Below, one piece after another: positions 50,114-61,025 of a DNA stretch of 64,000 nucleotides. The first letter of the stretch is position 1. Each line of letters begins with the position of its first letter. The notes beneath the pieces are model-generated. The model was given only the letters and a program-made list of their open reading frames with translations. It searched no databases and was not told the origin of the DNA. The stretch comes from Nitrospinaceae bacterium. GTDB lineage: Bacteria; Nitrospinota; Nitrospinia; Nitrospinales; VA-1. The stretch lies in contig BQJC01000001.1 in NCBI GenBank assembly GCA_021604505.1, positions 956,218 to 1,020,217 on the forward strand. The letters are read 5' to 3'. Position numbers and translations under genes: made by a program.

Positions 50114-52372
50114 ATGATGGCCGCTGAACGACCCAAACATCTCCTGATCATTGGCGGAGGACCTTTTCAGATCCCGGCGATCAAGACCGCCAAATCCATG
50201 GGGCTGAAAGTAGCGGTCACCGATTACAATCCGGAAGCCGAGGGCATGCTCATTGCCGATTACCCGATCGTGGTCAGCACCCGCAATATCAACCTGACCG
50301 TCAACACCGCCAAGGAATTCCACGAGACCTGTCCGCTCGATGGCGTCATGACCCTGGGAACCGATGCCTCGCAGACAGTGGCCGCCGTCGCCGATGCGTT
50401 GAATCTTCCCGGCATTCCCTTTGAAGTGGCGGAACGGGCGACAGACAAAATTAAAATGCGCCAATGCCTCCGGGAGCATAAGGTCCCGGTGCCGAAGTTT
50501 ATTCCCATATGGTCTTTGGAAGAAGCCCAGCGCGCTATTAAAGAAATGCCGCTCCCCCTGGTCATCAAACCCTGTGACAACATGGGTGCACGCGGTGTCA
50601 GAAAGATTTTGCAGATAGAGGACTTGATTCCCGCCTTTCGGGAAGCCAAGGAAGCCTCCATCAGTGGAAAACTGCTCATCGAAGAATTTATGGAAGGCCC
50701 CGAACTGAGCCTCGACGCCCTGGTATTTGAAGGCCGGATCGAGGTGACGGGGATCGCCGACCGTCATATAGAACGCTCTCCATATTTCGTGGAAGTCGGG
50801 CACACCCTGCCTTCCAGCCTTCCACAGGACCAGCAGGGAAAAGCGATGGACGTGTTCCGTCAGGCTGTCCGCGCCATTGGCATCAACCTCGGCGCCGCCA
50901 AGGGAGACATCAAAATGACTCCGGACGGTCCCAAGGTGGTTGAAATGGCCGCCCGTCTGAGCGGTGGCTGGATGTCCGCCTACACCTTTCCGCTGTCTTC
51001 CGGAGTGAATTTGATCAAAGGTGCGATTCAGGTGGCTCTTGGAGAAACTCCTGGGGATTTAACTCCTAAGACCGCTCTTGTTTCCGCCGAACGGGCGTTG
51101 ATCCCTTCACCGGGAAAGATTCTTTCCATCAAGGGCGTGGAAGAAGCGCGTAAAATCAAGGGCGTGAGAGAAATCATACTGATGAAGGAAGCCGGCGACT
51201 GGGCGGAAGAGGTAAAAAGCAACCTGGGCAAGACCGGATACGTCATCACCAGCGCCAAGACCCGTGAAGAAGCCATCCGTATCAACGATCTGGCAAGAGA
51301 AACCATTAAGGTTGAAGTCGGTGAGTCCAACACCTTGACCTGGGACATCATCCGCAACAACGCCCGCAAGAAATTTTATATCGCCTGCAAAGCCTGCGTG
51401 GTCTGCGATGGAGCGGAATGCAGGGGCAAGGTTCCGGGCATCGGCGGCATCGGGACCGGAGAGTCGTTCACGGAAAACCTTCGGGCGCTGGCCCGCTTCA
51501 AGATCAACCTGCGCACCATCCATCAGGTCAAATTCCCCGATCTTTCCACCGAGCTTTTCGGTCAGAAACTTTCCATCCCGGTTTTGGCCGCGCCGATCAC
51601 CGGAATGGAGACCAATCTGGCTGGCGGCATGGATGAAAAAGCCTACGCCGATGCCGTGCTGGGAGGGTGTATCTCCAGCGGGACGCTTGGGATGGTGGGG
51701 GACGGCGCCAGTCCACAGAAATACCTCATAGGTCTCGAAGCCATTAAAAAGAGGGGAGGGTTGGGAATCCCCGTTTTTAAGCCGCGCGAATACAATCTGG
51801 AAATCATCACCCGCTTCAAAGCGGCAGAGGACGCCGGCGCCATCGCCGTGGGAATCGACATCGACGCGGCTTCCTTTAAGACGATGGCCTTGAAAGGCCA
51901 GGCGGTGGGACCCAAGTCGGTCGAGGAATTGCGCGAATTAAAATCGCATTTAACCGTTCCTTTTGTTTTGAAAGGCATCATGAACGTGGAATCCGCCTTG
52001 GCGGCCATTGACGCAGGAGCGGATGCGATCGTCGTTTCCAATCATGGGGGGCGGGTCATGGACAACATGCCGGGGACTGCGGATGTTCTTCCGGAAATCG
52101 CCGCCGCCGTTGCAGGCCGCATCAAAGTGCTGGTGGATGGAGGCATTCGGGAAGGTGTGGATATCCTGAAAATGCTGGCCCTGGGGGCGGATGCCGTCAT
52201 GATCGGGCGGCCCGTCTGTATCGCGGCGTTCGGAGCGGGCCGGGAAGGCGTGCAATTTTATCTCGATCAAAAACGCGACGAATTGAAAAAAGCCATGATT
52301 CTCACCGGATGCGCCAGCATCGGCAAGATCGATCCTTCAGTGATTTTCCGCAATGCCAAGGGAGAACGATGA
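50114..52372 (+). CDS. ATP-grasp ligase fused to an FMN-dependent alpha-hydroxy-acid dehydrogenase
   Basis: A 752-residue two-domain protein. Residues 1 to about 400 are an ATP-grasp module (pre-ATP-grasp IIGGGPFQIPAIKTAKSMG; ATP-binding PLVIKPCDNMGARGVRK; metal-binding VVEMAARLSGGWMS). Residues about 415-752 are a TIM-barrel FMN enzyme of the lactate/glycolate oxidase type with a four-Cys entry segment (Cys425, 428, 431, 436), AAPITGMETN, VLKGIMNVESA, the catalytic His644 in VVSNHGGRVMD, and the phosphate-binding VDGGIREGVDILKMLALGADAVMIGRP. The Cys segment is shared with stand-alone clostridial-type members. The fusion suggests that a 2-hydroxy- or 2-keto-acid is passed to an ATP-driven ligation; the substrate is unknown. 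Its TGA overlaps the ATG of the next gene. Confidence 0.9.
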   Translation: MMAAERPKHLLIIGGGPFQIPAIKTAKSMGLKVAVTDYNPEAEGMLIADYPIVVSTRNINLTVNTAKEFHETCPLDGVMTLGTDASQTVAAVADALNLPGIPFEVAERATDKIKMRQCLREHKVPVPKFIPIWSLEEAQRAIKEMPLPLVIKPCDNMGARGVRKILQIEDLIPAFREAKEASISGKLLIEEFMEGPELSLDALVFEGRIEVTGIADRHIERSPYFVEVGHTLPSSLPQDQQGKAMDVFRQAVRAIGINLGAAKGDIKMTPDGPKVVEMAARLSGGWMSAYTFPLSSGVNLIKGAIQVALGETPGDLTPKTALVSAERALIPSPGKILSIKGVEEARKIKGVREIILMKEAGDWAEEVKSNLGKTGYVITSAKTREEAIRINDLARETIKVEVGESNTLTWDIIRNNARKKFYIACKACVVCDGAECRGKVPGIGGIGTGESFTENLRALARFKINLRTIHQVKFPDLSTELFGQKLSIPVLAAPITGMETNLAGGMDEKAYADAVLGGCISSGTLGMVGDGASPQKYLIGLEAIKKRGGLGIPVFKPREYNLEIITRFKAAEDAGAIAVGIDIDAASFKTMALKGQAVGPKSVEELRELKSHLTVPFVLKGIMNVESALAAIDAGADAIVVSNHGGRVMDNMPGTADVLPEIAAAVAGRIKVLVDGGIREGVDILKMLALGADAVMIGRPVCIAAFGAGREGVQFYLDQKRDELKKAMILTGCASIGKIDPSVIFRNAKGER

Positions 52373-53190
52373 TGAATTCAAACCCGCCACAGTTTTTAAA
52401 AATTATTCCAACCGGGAAAAGGGGTATTGGCCTGGAATTGATGCAATCCATGCGCTTTTTGAAGGAAGAATTTGGCGCCAGTTGTTTGAAGTTGTCGACC
52501 GAAGATGCGGGCATGTCGTTTGAACAAATTCGCTTTTGGACCGAGTTGGCGGACGGCATTCTTCCAGTCATGGTCAAAATCGGCGGACCCAACGCCCGTA
52601 ACGATATTAAACAGTTGCTGTCATTCAATATCGACGGTTTGATTGCGCCGATGGTGGAATCCACCTATGGCTTGGAAAATTTTCTTTCAGCGGTCCAGGA
52701 TTTTACAACTCCCTTGCAAATGCAACGGCTGGTCAAACAGGTCAATATCGAAACCGTGACCGGCGTCGATAAGCTGGACGAAATTCTCGCCGCACCGGAA
52801 GCGAATCTTCTCGATGAAATCACCATCGGTTGCAGTGATTTGTCTCAATCTCTCAAAAAAGATCGTCTGGACCCTGTGGTCCAAAGTCTGGTCAAGCAAA
52901 CGGTCGCTAAAATTAAAGCCAGAAAAATCAATGTGTCTGTTGGCGGCGGCATCGCTCCGGACACCATTGATGAAATTCTCCGCGATATCCAGCCGCATCA
53001 GTTCAATACCCGCATGGTGACTTTTACCGTGCATCCAGGTCAACGCTATCGCGCCGCAGTCGCTGAAACCCTTTATTTTGAATTAAAAATGCTGGAGCAC
53101 GACCTCGCTAAAGGGTTTATTTCCAGGGACGAAGAAAAATTTCGCGCCCGTCAATTGCGGACCCGGCTGGCTGATCTTAAAAAAGGTTGA
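52369..53190 (+). CDS. HpcH/HpaI-type aldolase family protein
   Basis: A 273-residue TIM-barrel protein of the HpcH/HpaI aldolase/citrate-lyase-beta type: PVMVKIGGPNARNDIKQLLSFNIDGLIAPMVES, then VNIETVTGVDKLDEILAA and LDEITIGCSDLSQSL, where the metal-binding Glu and Asp lie. Enzymes of this family cleave or form 2-keto-3-deoxy acids, malyl- or citryl-type compounds. The true start is ATG 52369, which overlaps the TGA of the ATP-grasp/FMN gene (ATGA), with GGGAG just upstream; the earlier in-frame Met codons lie in the previous gene. The tight coupling means that the two proteins are made together, probably as parts of one pathway. Confidence 0.85.
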   Translation: MMNSNPPQFLKIIPTGKRGIGLELMQSMRFLKEEFGASCLKLSTEDAGMSFEQIRFWTELADGILPVMVKIGGPNARNDIKQLLSFNIDGLIAPMVESTYGLENFLSAVQDFTTPLQMQRLVKQVNIETVTGVDKLDEILAAPEANLLDEITIGCSDLSQSLKKDRLDPVVQSLVKQTVAKIKARKINVSVGGGIAPDTIDEILRDIQPHQFNTRMVTFTVHPGQRYRAAVAETLYFELKMLEHDLAKGFISRDEEKFRARQLRTRLADLKKG

Positions 53191-54774: not shown

Positions 54775-57486
54775 ATGCATAAGCAAGGTGTTGGAGAATT
54801 CCCCTACTACGTTGGGATCAATTCGTTGAGTGAGCTTGCGACCAAGGACGACCGGGTCGTTGTTTTGAATATTCTGGGAAATGAAAGTTCCACCGTAACT
54901 CCGGTCAGCCACGAATATTCCGGTGGCAACATTGTGTTCGGAACCGGACCGGGCAAGTCAGGAAAATTCCTGCCCACCAAATCCGGCAAAATTCCGGTAT
55001 ACAACTCCATTAAAGAAGGCATGGCGGCAGGTCACGCATTCAATACCGTCGTGGTTTATCTTCCGCCATCCGGAGTCAAAGACGGAATCGCGGAAGCGGT
55101 TCGCGCCAATCCCGATCTTAAAAAAGCGATCATTTTGACAGAAAAAGTTTCCGTTAAAGATGCCCGCATCATGCGCGCCATTTGTCAAACCAATGGAGTC
55201 GATCTTTTTGGCGGCAACTGCCTGGGCCTGGCCGATTCCTGGAATCACGTGAGGGTGGGCGGCGCTTTGGGAGGAAGCCATCCTGAAGAATCCCTGATCA
55301 AGGGATCGGTGGCTCTTTTTTCCAACTCAGGAAACTTCACCACCACCATTGCGGTTTACCTTTCCACGGCGGGTTGGGGAACGACCACTTCCGTATCCAG
55401 CGGCAAGGACGTTTATATTCAGTACGGTCCCAAGGAATTCCTTTATGCGTTTGATAATGACGACCGATCCAAAGTCGCGGTTCTTTATTCGGAGCCGGGC
55501 GGATATTACGAATACGGTCTCAAGTCCAGCAAACCCATGATCGCCTGCGTGGTCGGACGCTGGAAAGCGAAACTGACCAAGGCCTGCGGTCATGCAGGCT
55601 CGCTTGCAGGGTCGGGGGACGACGCATTCGCCAAGGAAAAATGGTTCATGGACTTGTTTGGCGTGGAAGGCATTTACACTCCCGAGAAACCTATATTTTC
55701 CAAAAAAGGCGCGCTGGTCACCAACATCGCCCACATTCCCGAAGCTTTGACCAAAGTGATGGACGCCAACGGCATCAAACCCGATTTTGAGCCCAAAGGA
55801 AGTCTGGCTTTGAAATGCTGGATGGGAAACAACCAGGGTGTGCGTCTCCCAGATGAGTTGGATATCCCGACGGTCGCGGCGATCAGCCCGTACAACGAGC
55901 AGATCGAGGCTCTCGACAAACAGGTGGGGGCTCAGTTTCGCCGGGAAACGTTGAAGGATGCCAGCGGCGCGTCGATGATGGACCCGAAAACCCAGGTTTC
56001 TAAAATCCAGGGCGTTTCAATTCTGGATGCATCGACGAAAACCTACGAAGCCAATCTGGTGTTTGCGCTGGTCAAACAATACCCCGACGCCTATGGCGAG
56101 AAAATCGCCAACATTGCCCTCAATGCCTATGTCAATCAGTTCAGACTGCCCACATTGGTGGCGGCGGAAGCTTCCCGAGTGAACGGGAATTCGCCCAATA
56201 CCGTTGCGGCGGCGGCGCTGGGAATCGTCGGTAAGAATGTGGCAAAAGCCGCGATGGATTCGGCGCAGGCCCTGGTGGATCTATTCAAGTTCACCAAGGT
56301 ACAGGATCCCGCGCAAGACTTCGACGTCTCCGCCCAGTTGAAGGAAGCGGAACAACATAAAGAGGCTCTCGTGTCCGGGGAAGCAGATGAACGCGCCCAG
56401 AAAATGGCGGACGCTTTGAACAAAGCCGGCAAATCCGTGTTCATCAGTTTTGTTCAGGATTTTGCCAAGGCGCAGAAAGGCCACGTGTCGGCGGACACCC
56501 TGCTGGCCGCCATCTGGCTCACTTTGGGATGGAGCAGCATGAAGACCAAAAAAATTCCCAAGGAAACCTTGGTGCGTTTACCCTGGCATTCCATTATTTA
56601 CAGCACCCTGGTCGGCATCACGGCGTCGCACGATCTGCATCTGAAAGACAGTTTCTGCGGCGTTAAGACCGAAGACCTGCTCAACAACAGTTTCACCAAA
56701 ACCGCGTTTCTCGCGCTCATGGGAAAAGAGCCTTCCAATACGGAACTGTTCGAGTTTCAGGTTCTTTTGGGGCTCATCATTACAAACGGTCCGGGAACGA
56801 TTTCCGCTCAGGGAGCCAAGGGGGCAGTCAGCGCCGATGGGCCTGAGCAGCCGGACCGTGTTCAAATCAACAAGGGGTACCTCGGCTTTTTGACGCATAC
56901 CGGGTTCGCCCACGGCGGCAACGGCTACGAAGCGGCGGCGTTTCTGATCGAAAATTTTAAAGACACCGATCTGAAAAGCGCTTCCGACAAAAAGCATGGT
57001 ATCGACCTGGAAGCCATCGCGATGAAAGTTGCCAAAGGGTATGCGGATTACAAAGGCAAGCAAAAAGCCATCGGCAACCTCGATTATGCCAAGATCCCCT
57101 GCGTCAATCATCCGATCTTCAAGGGCAAAGCCGTCAACGTCGATCCGCGTGAGGAGTTCGTCAGCGGTCTGTTCAAGAAAAAAGGACTGGATAACGTGTT
57201 CCTGGATTTCTACCATAGCCTGGTCAATGCGCTGTTCAAGGCCAAAGTCAGTAAGAACGTGTACTGCGTCAACATCGACGCGGTGATCGCGGTCATTCTG
57301 CTGAAGATGGTGTGGCCGGAATACAAAGCCGGGAAACTCAAGGAAGAGGATATCGAATCCGCGAGTTTCGCCACCTTCCTGTTTGGCCGTATGATCGGTT
57401 GCGCGGCGGAGATCGACGATCACACCAACCGCGGCAAAAACATGGACACGCGAACGCCTGCAAGCAAGGTGGTTTATGTAGGCTGA
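54775..57486 (+). CDS. aclA: ATP-citrate lyase, large (alpha) subunit, long form
   Basis: A 903-residue subunit, against about 610 in Chlorobium AclA. The N-terminal half (to about 390) is succinyl-CoA-synthetase-alpha-like, with the phospho-His273 in KACGHAGSLAGSGDD. The C-terminal part is the citrate-synthase-like domain, with the second catalytic His in IPCVNHPIF (His779) and Asp in YCVNIDAVI (Asp835), matching human ACLY His975 and Asp1026. The first catalytic residue of ACLY (His900 in DHGP) aligns with Asn671 in ITNGPGTIS, while a His-Gly-Gly (His713 in GFAHGGNGYEAA) appears where citrate synthase has its first catalytic His. About 200 extra residues (roughly 395-600) separate the halves. 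Confidence 0.9.
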   Translation: MHKQGVGEFPYYVGINSLSELATKDDRVVVLNILGNESSTVTPVSHEYSGGNIVFGTGPGKSGKFLPTKSGKIPVYNSIKEGMAAGHAFNTVVVYLPPSGVKDGIAEAVRANPDLKKAIILTEKVSVKDARIMRAICQTNGVDLFGGNCLGLADSWNHVRVGGALGGSHPEESLIKGSVALFSNSGNFTTTIAVYLSTAGWGTTTSVSSGKDVYIQYGPKEFLYAFDNDDRSKVAVLYSEPGGYYEYGLKSSKPMIACVVGRWKAKLTKACGHAGSLAGSGDDAFAKEKWFMDLFGVEGIYTPEKPIFSKKGALVTNIAHIPEALTKVMDANGIKPDFEPKGSLALKCWMGNNQGVRLPDELDIPTVAAISPYNEQIEALDKQVGAQFRRETLKDASGASMMDPKTQVSKIQGVSILDASTKTYEANLVFALVKQYPDAYGEKIANIALNAYVNQFRLPTLVAAEASRVNGNSPNTVAAAALGIVGKNVAKAAMDSAQALVDLFKFTKVQDPAQDFDVSAQLKEAEQHKEALVSGEADERAQKMADALNKAGKSVFISFVQDFAKAQKGHVSADTLLAAIWLTLGWSSMKTKKIPKETLVRLPWHSIIYSTLVGITASHDLHLKDSFCGVKTEDLLNNSFTKTAFLALMGKEPSNTELFEFQVLLGLIITNGPGTISAQGAKGAVSADGPEQPDRVQINKGYLGFLTHTGFAHGGNGYEAAAFLIENFKDTDLKSASDKKHGIDLEAIAMKVAKGYADYKGKQKAIGNLDYAKIPCVNHPIFKGKAVNVDPREEFVSGLFKKKGLDNVFLDFYHSLVNALFKAKVSKNVYCVNIDAVIAVILLKMVWPEYKAGKLKEEDIESASFATFLFGRMIGCAAEIDDHTNRGKNMDTRTPASKVVYVG

Positions 57487-57950: not shown

Positions 57951-60900
57951 TTATTTTTGCTGGGATTCTGTACTGACTAGTTTGACTTTCGCTTCCACAG
58001 GTATAGCTTGCTCCAGAAGAAAATCCACCCCACTCATAACGGTTTCGGATCCTTCTATGACCACTTCCTGCGGTTCAGGAGTTTTCAGATTCAGCCGTTC
58101 GACCTGCTCCGGCGCAACGCGGACCAAATAACGTCCCATCGGAACCAGTTGGAACAGGTAGAATCCATCGAACTCGGTCTTCACTTCCTGCATCACTTCC
58201 AGTTCCTTTTCCTCTTCAAGAGAAACATTTTCGATGGGAGACTGAAAGGGTTCCTTCAATTGCACCCGGTTGTGAGACCGGTTGAACGGATAATTAAAAA
58301 AAGTATGTTTTCTATTGCCAGAGAAACTTATCCTCCGCACCAGCTTCCCCTTATGATTGACATAGACCGTATCCAGGTGGTTTCGCAAGCGGCGGACCAT
58401 TTTTTTCTTAAGGGCATCCCCCGTTTTCAGGAGCTGAATTTTCACATTAGAGACTGCCTTTTCTGAATCCCCAGTGCGAAGATAAACGGTGCCGTCGATT
58501 TCGCCGGTGGGCGTGACGGGGAAATTTAGCAGAGCCGGCCTCCCTGGCCGCGTTACCACTTCGTAACCTTTGTGCGCGGGGACCCAGAAAGGATCCTCCA
58601 GACTGGCGGTATCCAGAACAATAGGGGTAGGACGGTTACTGCTCAAGCCGGTCAGCAATGCAATCCCGTCTTCATCGGTTTTTCGGTCCCGGCTACCTGA
58701 TCGAAACTTAACATCTTTTAAAGGTTCGTCCCCTTTGTCGAAGGCCTGGTTATTATTATTATCGAGGAACACCCTGGCGGAAGCGGTTCCCGAGCTGGCC
58801 ATTGGATCGGAACGGGTCACCCAGCGCCCCTTTCTGGGTTCGCGGCCAATGCTGAAGGTGATGGAGGAGCCGATGGAAAAAGCCCCGTCATCGTCATAAG
58901 CTCCATTGATCCCCACAGCAAATGACTTGAATCGGCGATTGAGTCCCGCGTTGTAGGTCGTCAATTGTTCGCCGTTGAGTTGACGGTTCAATCCCAAACT
59001 AGCGCTGAAATCGCGGTTCAACCGGTAATCACCTGTAATGGCAGTGCTGGTCAACTCAGGATCCGGTTTTATCCCGTAGTTAAGGGCCCCACGCAGGGAT
59101 AGCCGCAAGAAACGTCCACTCAACTGAAACGTGCCAGTTCCGGTGGTGAGGGGTTCGATGTCTCCCCCACGGGTCAACGACCAATCCAATGAATTCGAAG
59201 CCGAAGTTCCAAAAAGAAACATTGAAACGCGGTTGGTGAGTTCGATCTGGTCCACGCCGGACTCTCTCCGTTCCAGTTCGCCGGTGATCGACCAGGGAAT
59301 GCGTGGGACTAAGCCCAACGACGGAACCGAACTGTCCAAACGGGCCTTACTGCGATGACTGACCGGGTCGAAAAGATTCTCCTCCCGCTCACTTTGAAAT
59401 TCGAAAAACCGGCTGTGCTCCAGAAAAAGGTTGAGCCCCATCAGGTTAGTCAGCGTTGCCGCCTGCAGAGCCGTCCCTCCGATGTCGTTTTTGGTCACAT
59501 CCACACGGGTGGAAGCGCCCAACAGCCCTGATCGAAAACCGAGTGTGCCAAAATAACGCCGCCCCTCCTCCAACGGCAGACTGGCAAAATTGCCCGCCAG
59601 AGACAGCCATCGAGTGACGCCATGTTGATATTCGGCAATATAGCGTGCCTGACCATCCCCCCTTATCGGGGAGGATGTTGTTTCCTCGTCCTCCACCTCA
59701 AACAAATCCCTGTTCTGAAAGGAGGTGGCAAAGCGGAAATAATGTTTTCCGGGGGAAGCCTGATCCTGCCCCACATTGACCCGCTGGACTTCTTCGCGTC
59801 TTTGGCCCTGGGGGCCATAAAACACCAAACGGATCACATTGGACCCAAATAACAGGGGAACATCGAGAAACTCATAACGCCCGTCGGCATTGGGCACAGT
59901 TTGGGCGCTGAGCAGGATTTCATTGCGATACAGCTCCACCTCCCAACCCACCTGCAGTTCACCACGCAGGTTGACCCGGTCAAATTCCGATTCCCGAAGC
60001 AGGGGAAAACTGGAAACTTGAAATCCCGCTCCCGATTGACTGTTGGCTATTAAAGGAATCTGCGGGCCGAAGACATCCCCCAAAGAAAACTCGCTGGCTC
60101 TAAGAGGCCCAAGCAGTTCCCCATCCGGGTCCTGCCGCCCCATTCTCAAACGCAGGCTGGAAAGGTTATCTTCCCTGTCTCCGGCAATGAACACATCGGT
60201 ATTCATGAAAAGGAAATCGCCGCTGACCAGGTTACTGGAATCGACCCCAAACTCGCGTGTTTCGCTATTGTAATCGAAATTGTAACTGGAATTGATGGCA
60301 GGCCAACTGAGGAGACGATAGGGAGGTTCCTTGCGCGGGTACTTTGGCCGCTCACGGGTTCCTCTCCCCAGGCGGGCATGTGCTTTCTCGCGCTTCAGTT
60401 TTTCCTCAAAAGGCAAGGGCACTTCCGCGGTGACCTTGACGAGCAATGCAGAAAGATCGAACTCGAAATCAACCGGAAACCATTTTGCCAGCAAGGTGCT
60501 GTCGACAAAAATATCTTCGGGATAAAGAACCACCAGGTTGGGATCAAAGCGCCTTGACTTTCCTTCGATGACGACTTCACCGCGTGCCACATCCAGGGAA
60601 AACCGTTGGTTCTCCGAAATAAACCAGCCTTCCGCCTGCTTTGCCACAGGGTCGACGGTGATGGCGAAATCGAGCATTTGCGTCACTTCACCCAGAGGAA
60701 GAAGCAATCCGCCGCGCTGGAGGTAGCCGATCATGCCATCGCTCAAAATATAGCGGCCAAATCGAAACTCCAGCACCAGCATCTCTACTTCGGCAGGATC
60801 AAAAACACTTTCCTGACTTCCCTTGCCTTGCTCAGAAGTTTTGGACCCGGCCAGACTATTTTTTGGAGAATTATTTTTAGAGCCAGTTGTGGGAGGTTGG

Positions 60901-61025
60901 ATCTTATTGTCAAGGACTTCCAAAGATTCTGGAGCGGCTGTCCCTTTAGCTTCGGCGGAATGGGGCGCGACACCCCCGAGTGTCAGGGAGGCACAAAAAA
61001 GAAAAATGAGTGCCGGTACCTGCAT
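57951..61025 (-). CDS. Outer-membrane usher-like protein of a DUF4402 pilus system
   Basis: A 1024-residue secreted protein (signal peptide to about residue 26). A periplasmic N-terminal region (to about 230) leads into a long beta-strand-rich barrel region (about 240-730) with the usher middle-domain motif GWEVELYRNEILLSAQTVPNADGRYEF and VPLLFGSNVIRLVFYGPQGQRREEVQ. After the barrel come Ig/carboxypeptidase-like domains (ARVFLDNNNNQAFDKGDEPL; GEIDGTVYLRTGDSEKAVSNVKIQLLKTG). It belongs to the divergent usher branch that accompanies short chaperones and DUF4402 pilins. It should secrete and assemble subunits at the outer membrane. It is 23 bases after the chaperone gene. Confidence 0.85.
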   Translation of the reverse strand: MQVPALIFLFCASLTLGGVAPHSAEAKGTAAPESLEVLDNKIQPPTTGSKNNSPKNSLAGSKTSEQGKGSQESVFDPAEVEMLVLEFRFGRYILSDGMIGYLQRGGLLLPLGEVTQMLDFAITVDPVAKQAEGWFISENQRFSLDVARGEVVIEGKSRRFDPNLVVLYPEDIFVDSTLLAKWFPVDFEFDLSALLVKVTAEVPLPFEEKLKREKAHARLGRGTRERPKYPRKEPPYRLLSWPAINSSYNFDYNSETREFGVDSSNLVSGDFLFMNTDVFIAGDREDNLSSLRLRMGRQDPDGELLGPLRASEFSLGDVFGPQIPLIANSQSGAGFQVSSFPLLRESEFDRVNLRGELQVGWEVELYRNEILLSAQTVPNADGRYEFLDVPLLFGSNVIRLVFYGPQGQRREEVQRVNVGQDQASPGKHYFRFATSFQNRDLFEVEDEETTSSPIRGDGQARYIAEYQHGVTRWLSLAGNFASLPLEEGRRYFGTLGFRSGLLGASTRVDVTKNDIGGTALQAATLTNLMGLNLFLEHSRFFEFQSEREENLFDPVSHRSKARLDSSVPSLGLVPRIPWSITGELERRESGVDQIELTNRVSMFLFGTSASNSLDWSLTRGGDIEPLTTGTGTFQLSGRFLRLSLRGALNYGIKPDPELTSTAITGDYRLNRDFSASLGLNRQLNGEQLTTYNAGLNRRFKSFAVGINGAYDDDGAFSIGSSITFSIGREPRKGRWVTRSDPMASSGTASARVFLDNNNNQAFDKGDEPLKDVKFRSGSRDRKTDEDGIALLTGLSSNRPTPIVLDTASLEDPFWVPAHKGYEVVTRPGRPALLNFPVTPTGEIDGTVYLRTGDSEKAVSNVKIQLLKTGDALKKKMVRRLRNHLDTVYVNHKGKLVRRISFSGNRKHTFFNYPFNRSHNRVQLKEPFQSPIENVSLEEEKELEVMQEVKTEFDGFYLFQLVPMGRYLVRVAPEQVERLNLKTPEPQEVVIEGSETVMSGVDFLLEQAIPVEAKVKLVSTESQQK

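Follow-up and report, generated by a model that had tools for sequence, protein, structure and literature searches.

Nitrospinota, major nitrite oxidizers of the sea, are thought to use the reductive tricarboxylic acid (rTCA) cycle for CO2 fixation, in which the citrate-cleaving step belongs to ATP-citrate lyase (ACL), AclAB. The type I form of ACL, represented by Chlorobium limicola AclAB (6HXJ) and human ACLY, combines an acyl-CoA synthetase homology (ASH) part with a phosphohistidine in a GHAG motif, an ATP-grasp and citrate-binding partner, and a C-terminal citrate synthase homology (CSH) domain. The CSH domains of ordinary ACL form a tetrameric core, and for human ACLY there is an argument that the CSH module acts allosterically and not in catalysis (PMC10115795). 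The citryl-CoA synthetase (CCS; 6HXQ) and citryl-CoA lyase (CCL; 6HXP) of Hydrogenobacter thermophilus are separate proteins with one CSH per chain, and the lyase has a His in both its DHG and its AHGG motif; citrate synthase (CS) has the same fold and the same HGG His. A divergent two-subunit ACL that is very dissimilar to type I and occurs in rTCA autotrophs has been described as "type II ATP-citrate lyase" (PMC6783814, PMC3522073, PMC3578206). Magnetotactic cocci and the symbionts of tubeworms were proposed to have it (PMC3522073, PMC6783814), and the forms in planctomycetes have been placed between CCS/CCL and type II ACL (PMC5459899). In Nitrospina gracilis, Luecker and co-workers noted two genes that resemble known ACLs only very weakly and assumed their function (PMC3578206), and the rTCA assignment is published (PMC3578206, PMC8026999). 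In the open-access literature that we searched, neither a duplication of the CSH domain nor the Asn/His exchange reported below is described. The type II enzyme is said to go under that name with Huegler and Sievert in 2011, reportedly for Magnetococcus Mmc1_3638/3639 and tubeworm endosymbionts.

The aclB–aclA pair and its domain layout

In the window, the 64,000-nt stretch of Nitrospinaceae DNA that was analyzed, aclB adjoins an aclA ORF encoding 903 aa and lies upstream of it (Table 1). AclA has matches to Pfam PF02629 and PF13607 above cut-off, with the phosphohistidine in a GHAG motif as in type I ACL, and in the PDB search its ASH resembles the α-subunit of succinyl-CoA synthetase and the small subunit of citryl-CoA synthetase (6HXQ), the latter being among the best matches. 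Beyond residue 281 there was no significant Pfam match, and PF00285 (Citrate_synt), the Pfam family of citrate synthase, did not match AclA; the NCBIfam matches in the C-terminal part (residues 629-901) were to citryl-CoA lyase only. Unlike citrate synthase and the separate Hydrogenobacter proteins, however, the CSH of AclA is fused to the ASH in a single ORF, and AclA is not a stand-alone citryl-CoA lyase. It has the makeup of an ACL subunit: an ASH with the GHAG His, a CSH at the C terminus whose His and Asp correspond in position to those of type I ACL and citrate synthase, and an adjoining AclB.

Table 1. Features of the aclB–aclA locus, in window coordinates
Feature	Coordinates	Strand	Evidence or state
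aclB, ATP-grasp and citrate-binding subunit, 423 aa	53459..54730	+	Pfam PF08442 and PF16114 above cut-off; GG(K/R)ANNT and RGGP motifs kept in homologs
aclA, long large subunit, 903 aa	54775..57486	+	Present in 31/31 good Nitrospinota genomes
ASH part of AclA, residues 20-394	54832..55956	+	PDB matches: succinyl-CoA synthetase α, 6HXQ, 6HXJ
Glu240 codon (ASH)	55492..55494	+	Invariant
His273 codon (ASH, phospho-His)	55591..55593	+	Invariant
CSH1, degenerate CSH domain (by profile and model), residues 395-622	55957..56640	+	hhalign, AF2 model, Foldseek; catalytic His/Arg positions lost
CSH2, intact CSH domain, residues 623-903	56641..57483	+	NCBIfam citryl-CoA lyase subfamily, E 7e-11; PDB 6HXP, E 5.5e-12 with a four-sequence profile (weak match only, E 0.23, with the single sequence)
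Asn671 codon	56785..56787	+	Presumed position of ACLY His900, in the numbering of the sequence-only reading
His713 codon (HGG)	56911..56913	+	Aligns with Phe of type I AclA and with His of 6HXP and CS
His779 codon	57109..57111	+	Invariant; aligns with the GHR/GHP His of CS and CCL-like genes
Asp835 codon	57277..57279	+	Invariant; aligns with the NVD Asp

Active-site residues of CSH2

The residues in question lie in the motifs IITNGPGTISAQG (Asn671), FAHGGNGYEAAA (His713), CVNHPIFKG (His779), and CVNIDAV (Asp835). A sequence-only reading of the locus had proposed that AclA keeps two ACLY catalytic residues as His779 and Asp835, that the His of DHGP is replaced by Asn671, and that His713 falls on the first catalytic His segment of citrate synthase, where ACLY has Phe. 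Alignment of the CSH2 profile with PDB chains bears this out. Asn671 aligns with the His of DHG in the H. thermophilus lyase 6HXP and of DHGPAV in C. limicola AclA, and His713 aligns with the His of AHGG in 6HXP and of HGG in citrate synthase 2C6X and with the Phe of FGG in Chlorobium AclA. No other His takes the place of ACLY His900 in the aligned neighborhood, the residue there being Asn in every member. We take the AclA residues to match human ACLY His900, His975, and Asp1026 from the numbering of that reading, the type I protein in the alignment being Chlorobium AclA only. In the full-length AclA model (pTM 0.54) the ASH and the active-site loops were poor, with loops 672-696, 707-715, and 779-788 at pLDDT <50.

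Asn671, His713, His779, Asp835, Arg872, Arg893, and the phosphohistidine His273 were invariant in 60 nonredundant homologs, short insert-less forms included, and the pattern formed by the first four is therefore not due to chance; the Asn/His exchange is, on these alignments, a trait of the family. Of the full-length genes for citrate synthase, methylcitrate synthase, and CCL-like proteins, all 27 that were aligned have His at the position of Asn671. At the positions of Asn671 and His713, the long-AclA family is Asn/His, type I AclA is His/Phe, CS and Hydrogenobacter CCL are His/His, and two genes of the CCL subfamily are His/Thr, the CS and CCL states being taken from the alignment since a regular-expression survey of the motifs was misleading. 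AclA thus has no His at the DHE/DHG position of citrate synthase. Because Asn stands for the DHGP His in all 60 homologs, we set the long AclA outside type I ACL, from which it differs also in the His for the FGG Phe and in an extra degenerate CSH, with ~15% identity in the fold alignment. The idea of a mixed ACLY/citrate synthase site describes the residues correctly, and by homology the exchange falls on two active-site positions.

Both kinds of AclA are found in one Nitrospinota genome (G058), where a 619-aa type I AclA (L118) with DHGPCVSG and PRFGG lies beside a long AclA (L119) with SNGPG and AHGG; this genome, which carries both type I and long AclAB, has a listed contamination of 0%. 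Elsewhere, locus L094 (G103:C47:13236-14781) consists of two adjoining citrate synthase-like ORFs, one of which has NHGP and CGA for DHG and HGG.

The insert and its history

The more important part of the earlier observation is the insert, placed at about residues 395-600 and said to be absent from short AclA. It is real and missing in the short forms, but it is larger, spanning about 395-622, and is identified by profile comparison and modeling as a whole second, degenerate CSH domain (CSH1) in tandem to the intact CSH2 (residues 623-903), with no clear linker between the two in the one chain. With hhalign, residues 395-622 matched the short-form CSH at an E value of 1.1e-18 (score 125) and the CSH2 of the same protein at 2.7e-10 (score 74), colinear over more than 210 columns; the short-form CSH has two matches in the long AclA, the insert and the C-terminal domain. 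Against these scores, 60 column-shuffled profiles reached maxima of 24 and 21, respectively, and the ASH and reversed controls scored ~15. An unrelated domain was considered and rejected, all of these controls lying far below the real scores. The AlphaFold (AF2) model of the insert alone had a pLDDT of 77 and a pTM of 0.76, and its best PDB match in Foldseek was, as for CSH2, the Hydrogenobacter citryl-CoA lyase 6HXP (E 7.6e-5, probability 1.00), at a moderate TM-score of 0.57 and as the single match with E <0.001; the rest of the top 50 were ATP-citrate lyases, citrate synthases, and 2-methylcitrate synthases. Because a search of PDB sequences with the CSH1 profile found nothing, the identity of CSH1 rests on the profile-profile comparison, the model, and the fold search.

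Three short homologs (L069, L070, and L077; 690 aa for the two that were translated) lack the insert, share the Asn/His pattern, and are 36-38% identical to the window AclA and other long forms. In a domain tree, CSH1, CSH2, and the short-form CSH group apart from CS and CCL (100/100). CSH1 forms one group (100/99) and CSH2 another (98/99), and the divergent member L068 is basal in both, a mirrored arrangement consistent with a single duplication that predates the spread of the long form. The short-form CSH joins CSH1 at 74/34 in this tree, which, like the short-form profile, used two short sequences, with L077 left out.

Judged from the alignment, neither the two active-site histidines nor the two arginines survive in CSH1: His713 is replaced by Val, Met, Arg, Thr, or Lys in every case, the loop of His779 is missing, Thr mostly stands for Arg872, and the Arg893 position lies beyond the end of the domain. 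The Asn (454) and Asp (574) are mostly kept. An HGG in the CSH1 of L015 was put down to chance, being located elsewhere than the His713 position. Mean identity to the window AclA was 0.52 for CSH1 versus 0.71 for CSH2, and dN/dS, calculated with one Sinorhizobium pair left out for its mosaic look, was about 0.05-0.13 for CSH1 and about 0.03-0.09 for CSH2, indicating purifying selection. Since CSH1 is more variable than CSH2 yet under purifying selection, it is a retained pseudo-enzyme domain and not debris. L083 and L088, on plasmids of Sinorhizobium chiapasense and S. fredii, hardly differ in ASH and CSH1 (pS 0.03-0.04) but have a pS of 0.34 in CSH2, as if recombination had swapped CSH2.

Proposed enzyme, alternatives, and distribution

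We interpret AclAB as a divergent, probably type II-like ATP-citrate lyase with an active CSH2 and a structural CSH1 that arose by a single tandem duplication, maybe assembled as α2β2, and put the probability of this reading at roughly 0.78. It is supported by the short relatives that share the Asn/His pattern without the insert, the rTCA context, the duplication tree, and the conserved CSH2 residues. The likeness to type II ACL is one of description, and the accessible type II papers mention no duplicated domain. Since Glu240, His273, and the AclB motifs are kept, AclB and the ASH of AclA would make citryl-CoA via the phosphohistidine His273. CSH2 would cleave it with His713, His779, and Asp835; His713 would take the thioester-side role, as in citrate synthase, and Asn671 would stand in for the substrate-site His. 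With these roles, CS and Hydrogenobacter CCL have two histidines of which type I ACL would retain one and the long-AclA family the other. CSH1 stems from one tandem duplication preceding the spread of the long form and would be kept as a structural half. An AclA chain would then supply two of the four CSH units of an ordinary ACL core, so the enzyme may be α2β2, in which two CSH units are active and two are not. The more general proposal, a widespread ACL class of α2β2 enzymes with a pseudo-tetrameric core to which each large subunit brings one catalytic CSH (Asn/His versus the type I His/Phe) and one dead scaffold CSH, has in our estimate slightly less than an even chance of being correct.

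The pairing of the domains admits a second arrangement, which we regard as possible but doubtful, in which CSH1 pairs with CSH2 inside one chain as an intrachain pseudo-dimer, instead of each domain pairing with its like in the other chain (CSH1-CSH1′ and CSH2-CSH2′). The tandem order and the lack of a clear linker suit it. However, CSH1 does not contain the Arg893 position, and it could not complete the CSH2 site if Arg893 is, as we presume it may be, the citrate synthase arginine that is supplied by the partner subunit; CSH2-CSH2′ pairing therefore seems likelier than CSH1-CSH2.

It is unlikely, in our judgment, that AclAB follows the scheme put forward for human ACLY, with an allosteric CSH module and cleavage of citryl-CoA in the ASH, and that the CSH2 residues are kept for CoA loading. 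The published ACLY-D1026A data (PMC10115795) and the invariance of Glu240 and His273 in the ASH speak for such a role, and the conservation of the CSH2 residues could reflect CoA loading instead of chemistry. Against it, all three citrate synthase catalytic positions are invariant in CSH2 but are not retained together in CSH1, and the CCL/CS-type His, which ACLY has lost, is still present in CSH2. Because an intact and a disabled CSH share one chain, mutants can ask directly whether CSH performs chemistry or just handles CoA, the point disputed for human ACLY (PMC10115795). If the reading of AclAB as a lyase with an active CSH2 and a structural CSH1 is true, catalytic and structural CSH roles are naturally separated in one ACL class, citrate cleavage in Nitrospinota runs on an ACL of different architecture, and this differently built enzyme could help settle how citrate-cleaving enzymes work.

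The long AclA was detected in 31 of 31 good Nitrospinota genomes (≥90% complete, ≤5% contaminated), 29 of which have citrate synthase genes; the source genome of the window has two POR-type loci. Long AclA is also encoded in genomes of the phylum of L018 (63-68%, one at 41%), in a genome labeled Rokuibacteriota (64%), and on plasmids of Paraburkholderia, Caballeronia, Sinorhizobium, Microvirga, Polymorphobacter, Gemmobacter, and Aminobacter (51-56%). In the annotated stretches examined, the plasmid AclA, annotated just as "CoA-binding protein" or "hypothetical protein," is always paired with AclB, and the neighbors include tripartite tricarboxylate transporters, acyl-CoA thioesterase, and tcuAB, and elsewhere dctA. 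Since long AclAB is found on rhizobial and Paraburkholderia plasmids, it is not to be read as a marker of autotrophy. Loci L078-L090 are long AclAB on megaplasmids of rhizobia, Paraburkholderia, and relatives.

The sequence-only reading had further suggested that His713 is specifically citrate synthase-like and eases citrate formation, so that AclAB would be tuned towards ATP-forming citrate synthesis and work mainly in the oxidative direction. His713 does align with the HGG His of citrate synthase, and some ACLs run in reverse. The suggestion was nevertheless not supported, and we consider this direction very unlikely: the same AHGG His is present in the Hydrogenobacter citryl-CoA lyase, a citrate-cleaving enzyme, so the HGG His gives no reaction direction; a second citrate-forming enzyme is not needed where citrate synthase is already encoded, as in the 29 good genomes; and the position of long AclAB beside tricarboxylate transporters and tcuAB on plasmids of heterotrophs suggests cleavage. 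A further alternative, in which AclAB joins a citryl-CoA synthetase to a lyase for another substrate, such as a methylcitrate- or tricarballylate-like acid, is highly improbable. The Gemmobacter plasmid locus near tcuAB and tricarboxylate transport genes and the Asn671 change at the substrate-site position favor it; the citrate-binding domain PF16114 and conserved motifs of AclB speak against it, as does the lack of any other citrate-cleaving enzyme in the rTCA autotrophs (PMC3578206).

Two further regions of the window flank the pair. Upstream of aclB, at 50114-53190, an ORF fuses an ATP-grasp/L-amino-acid-ligase-like part to an FMN-dependent dehydrogenase part and is overlapped by an HpcH/HpaI-aldolase-like ORF. 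At 57951-61025 on the minus strand, a 1024-aa ORF has an N-terminal signal-like stretch and weak SdrD_B and CarboxypepD_reg matches and looks, by eye, like an outer-membrane usher.
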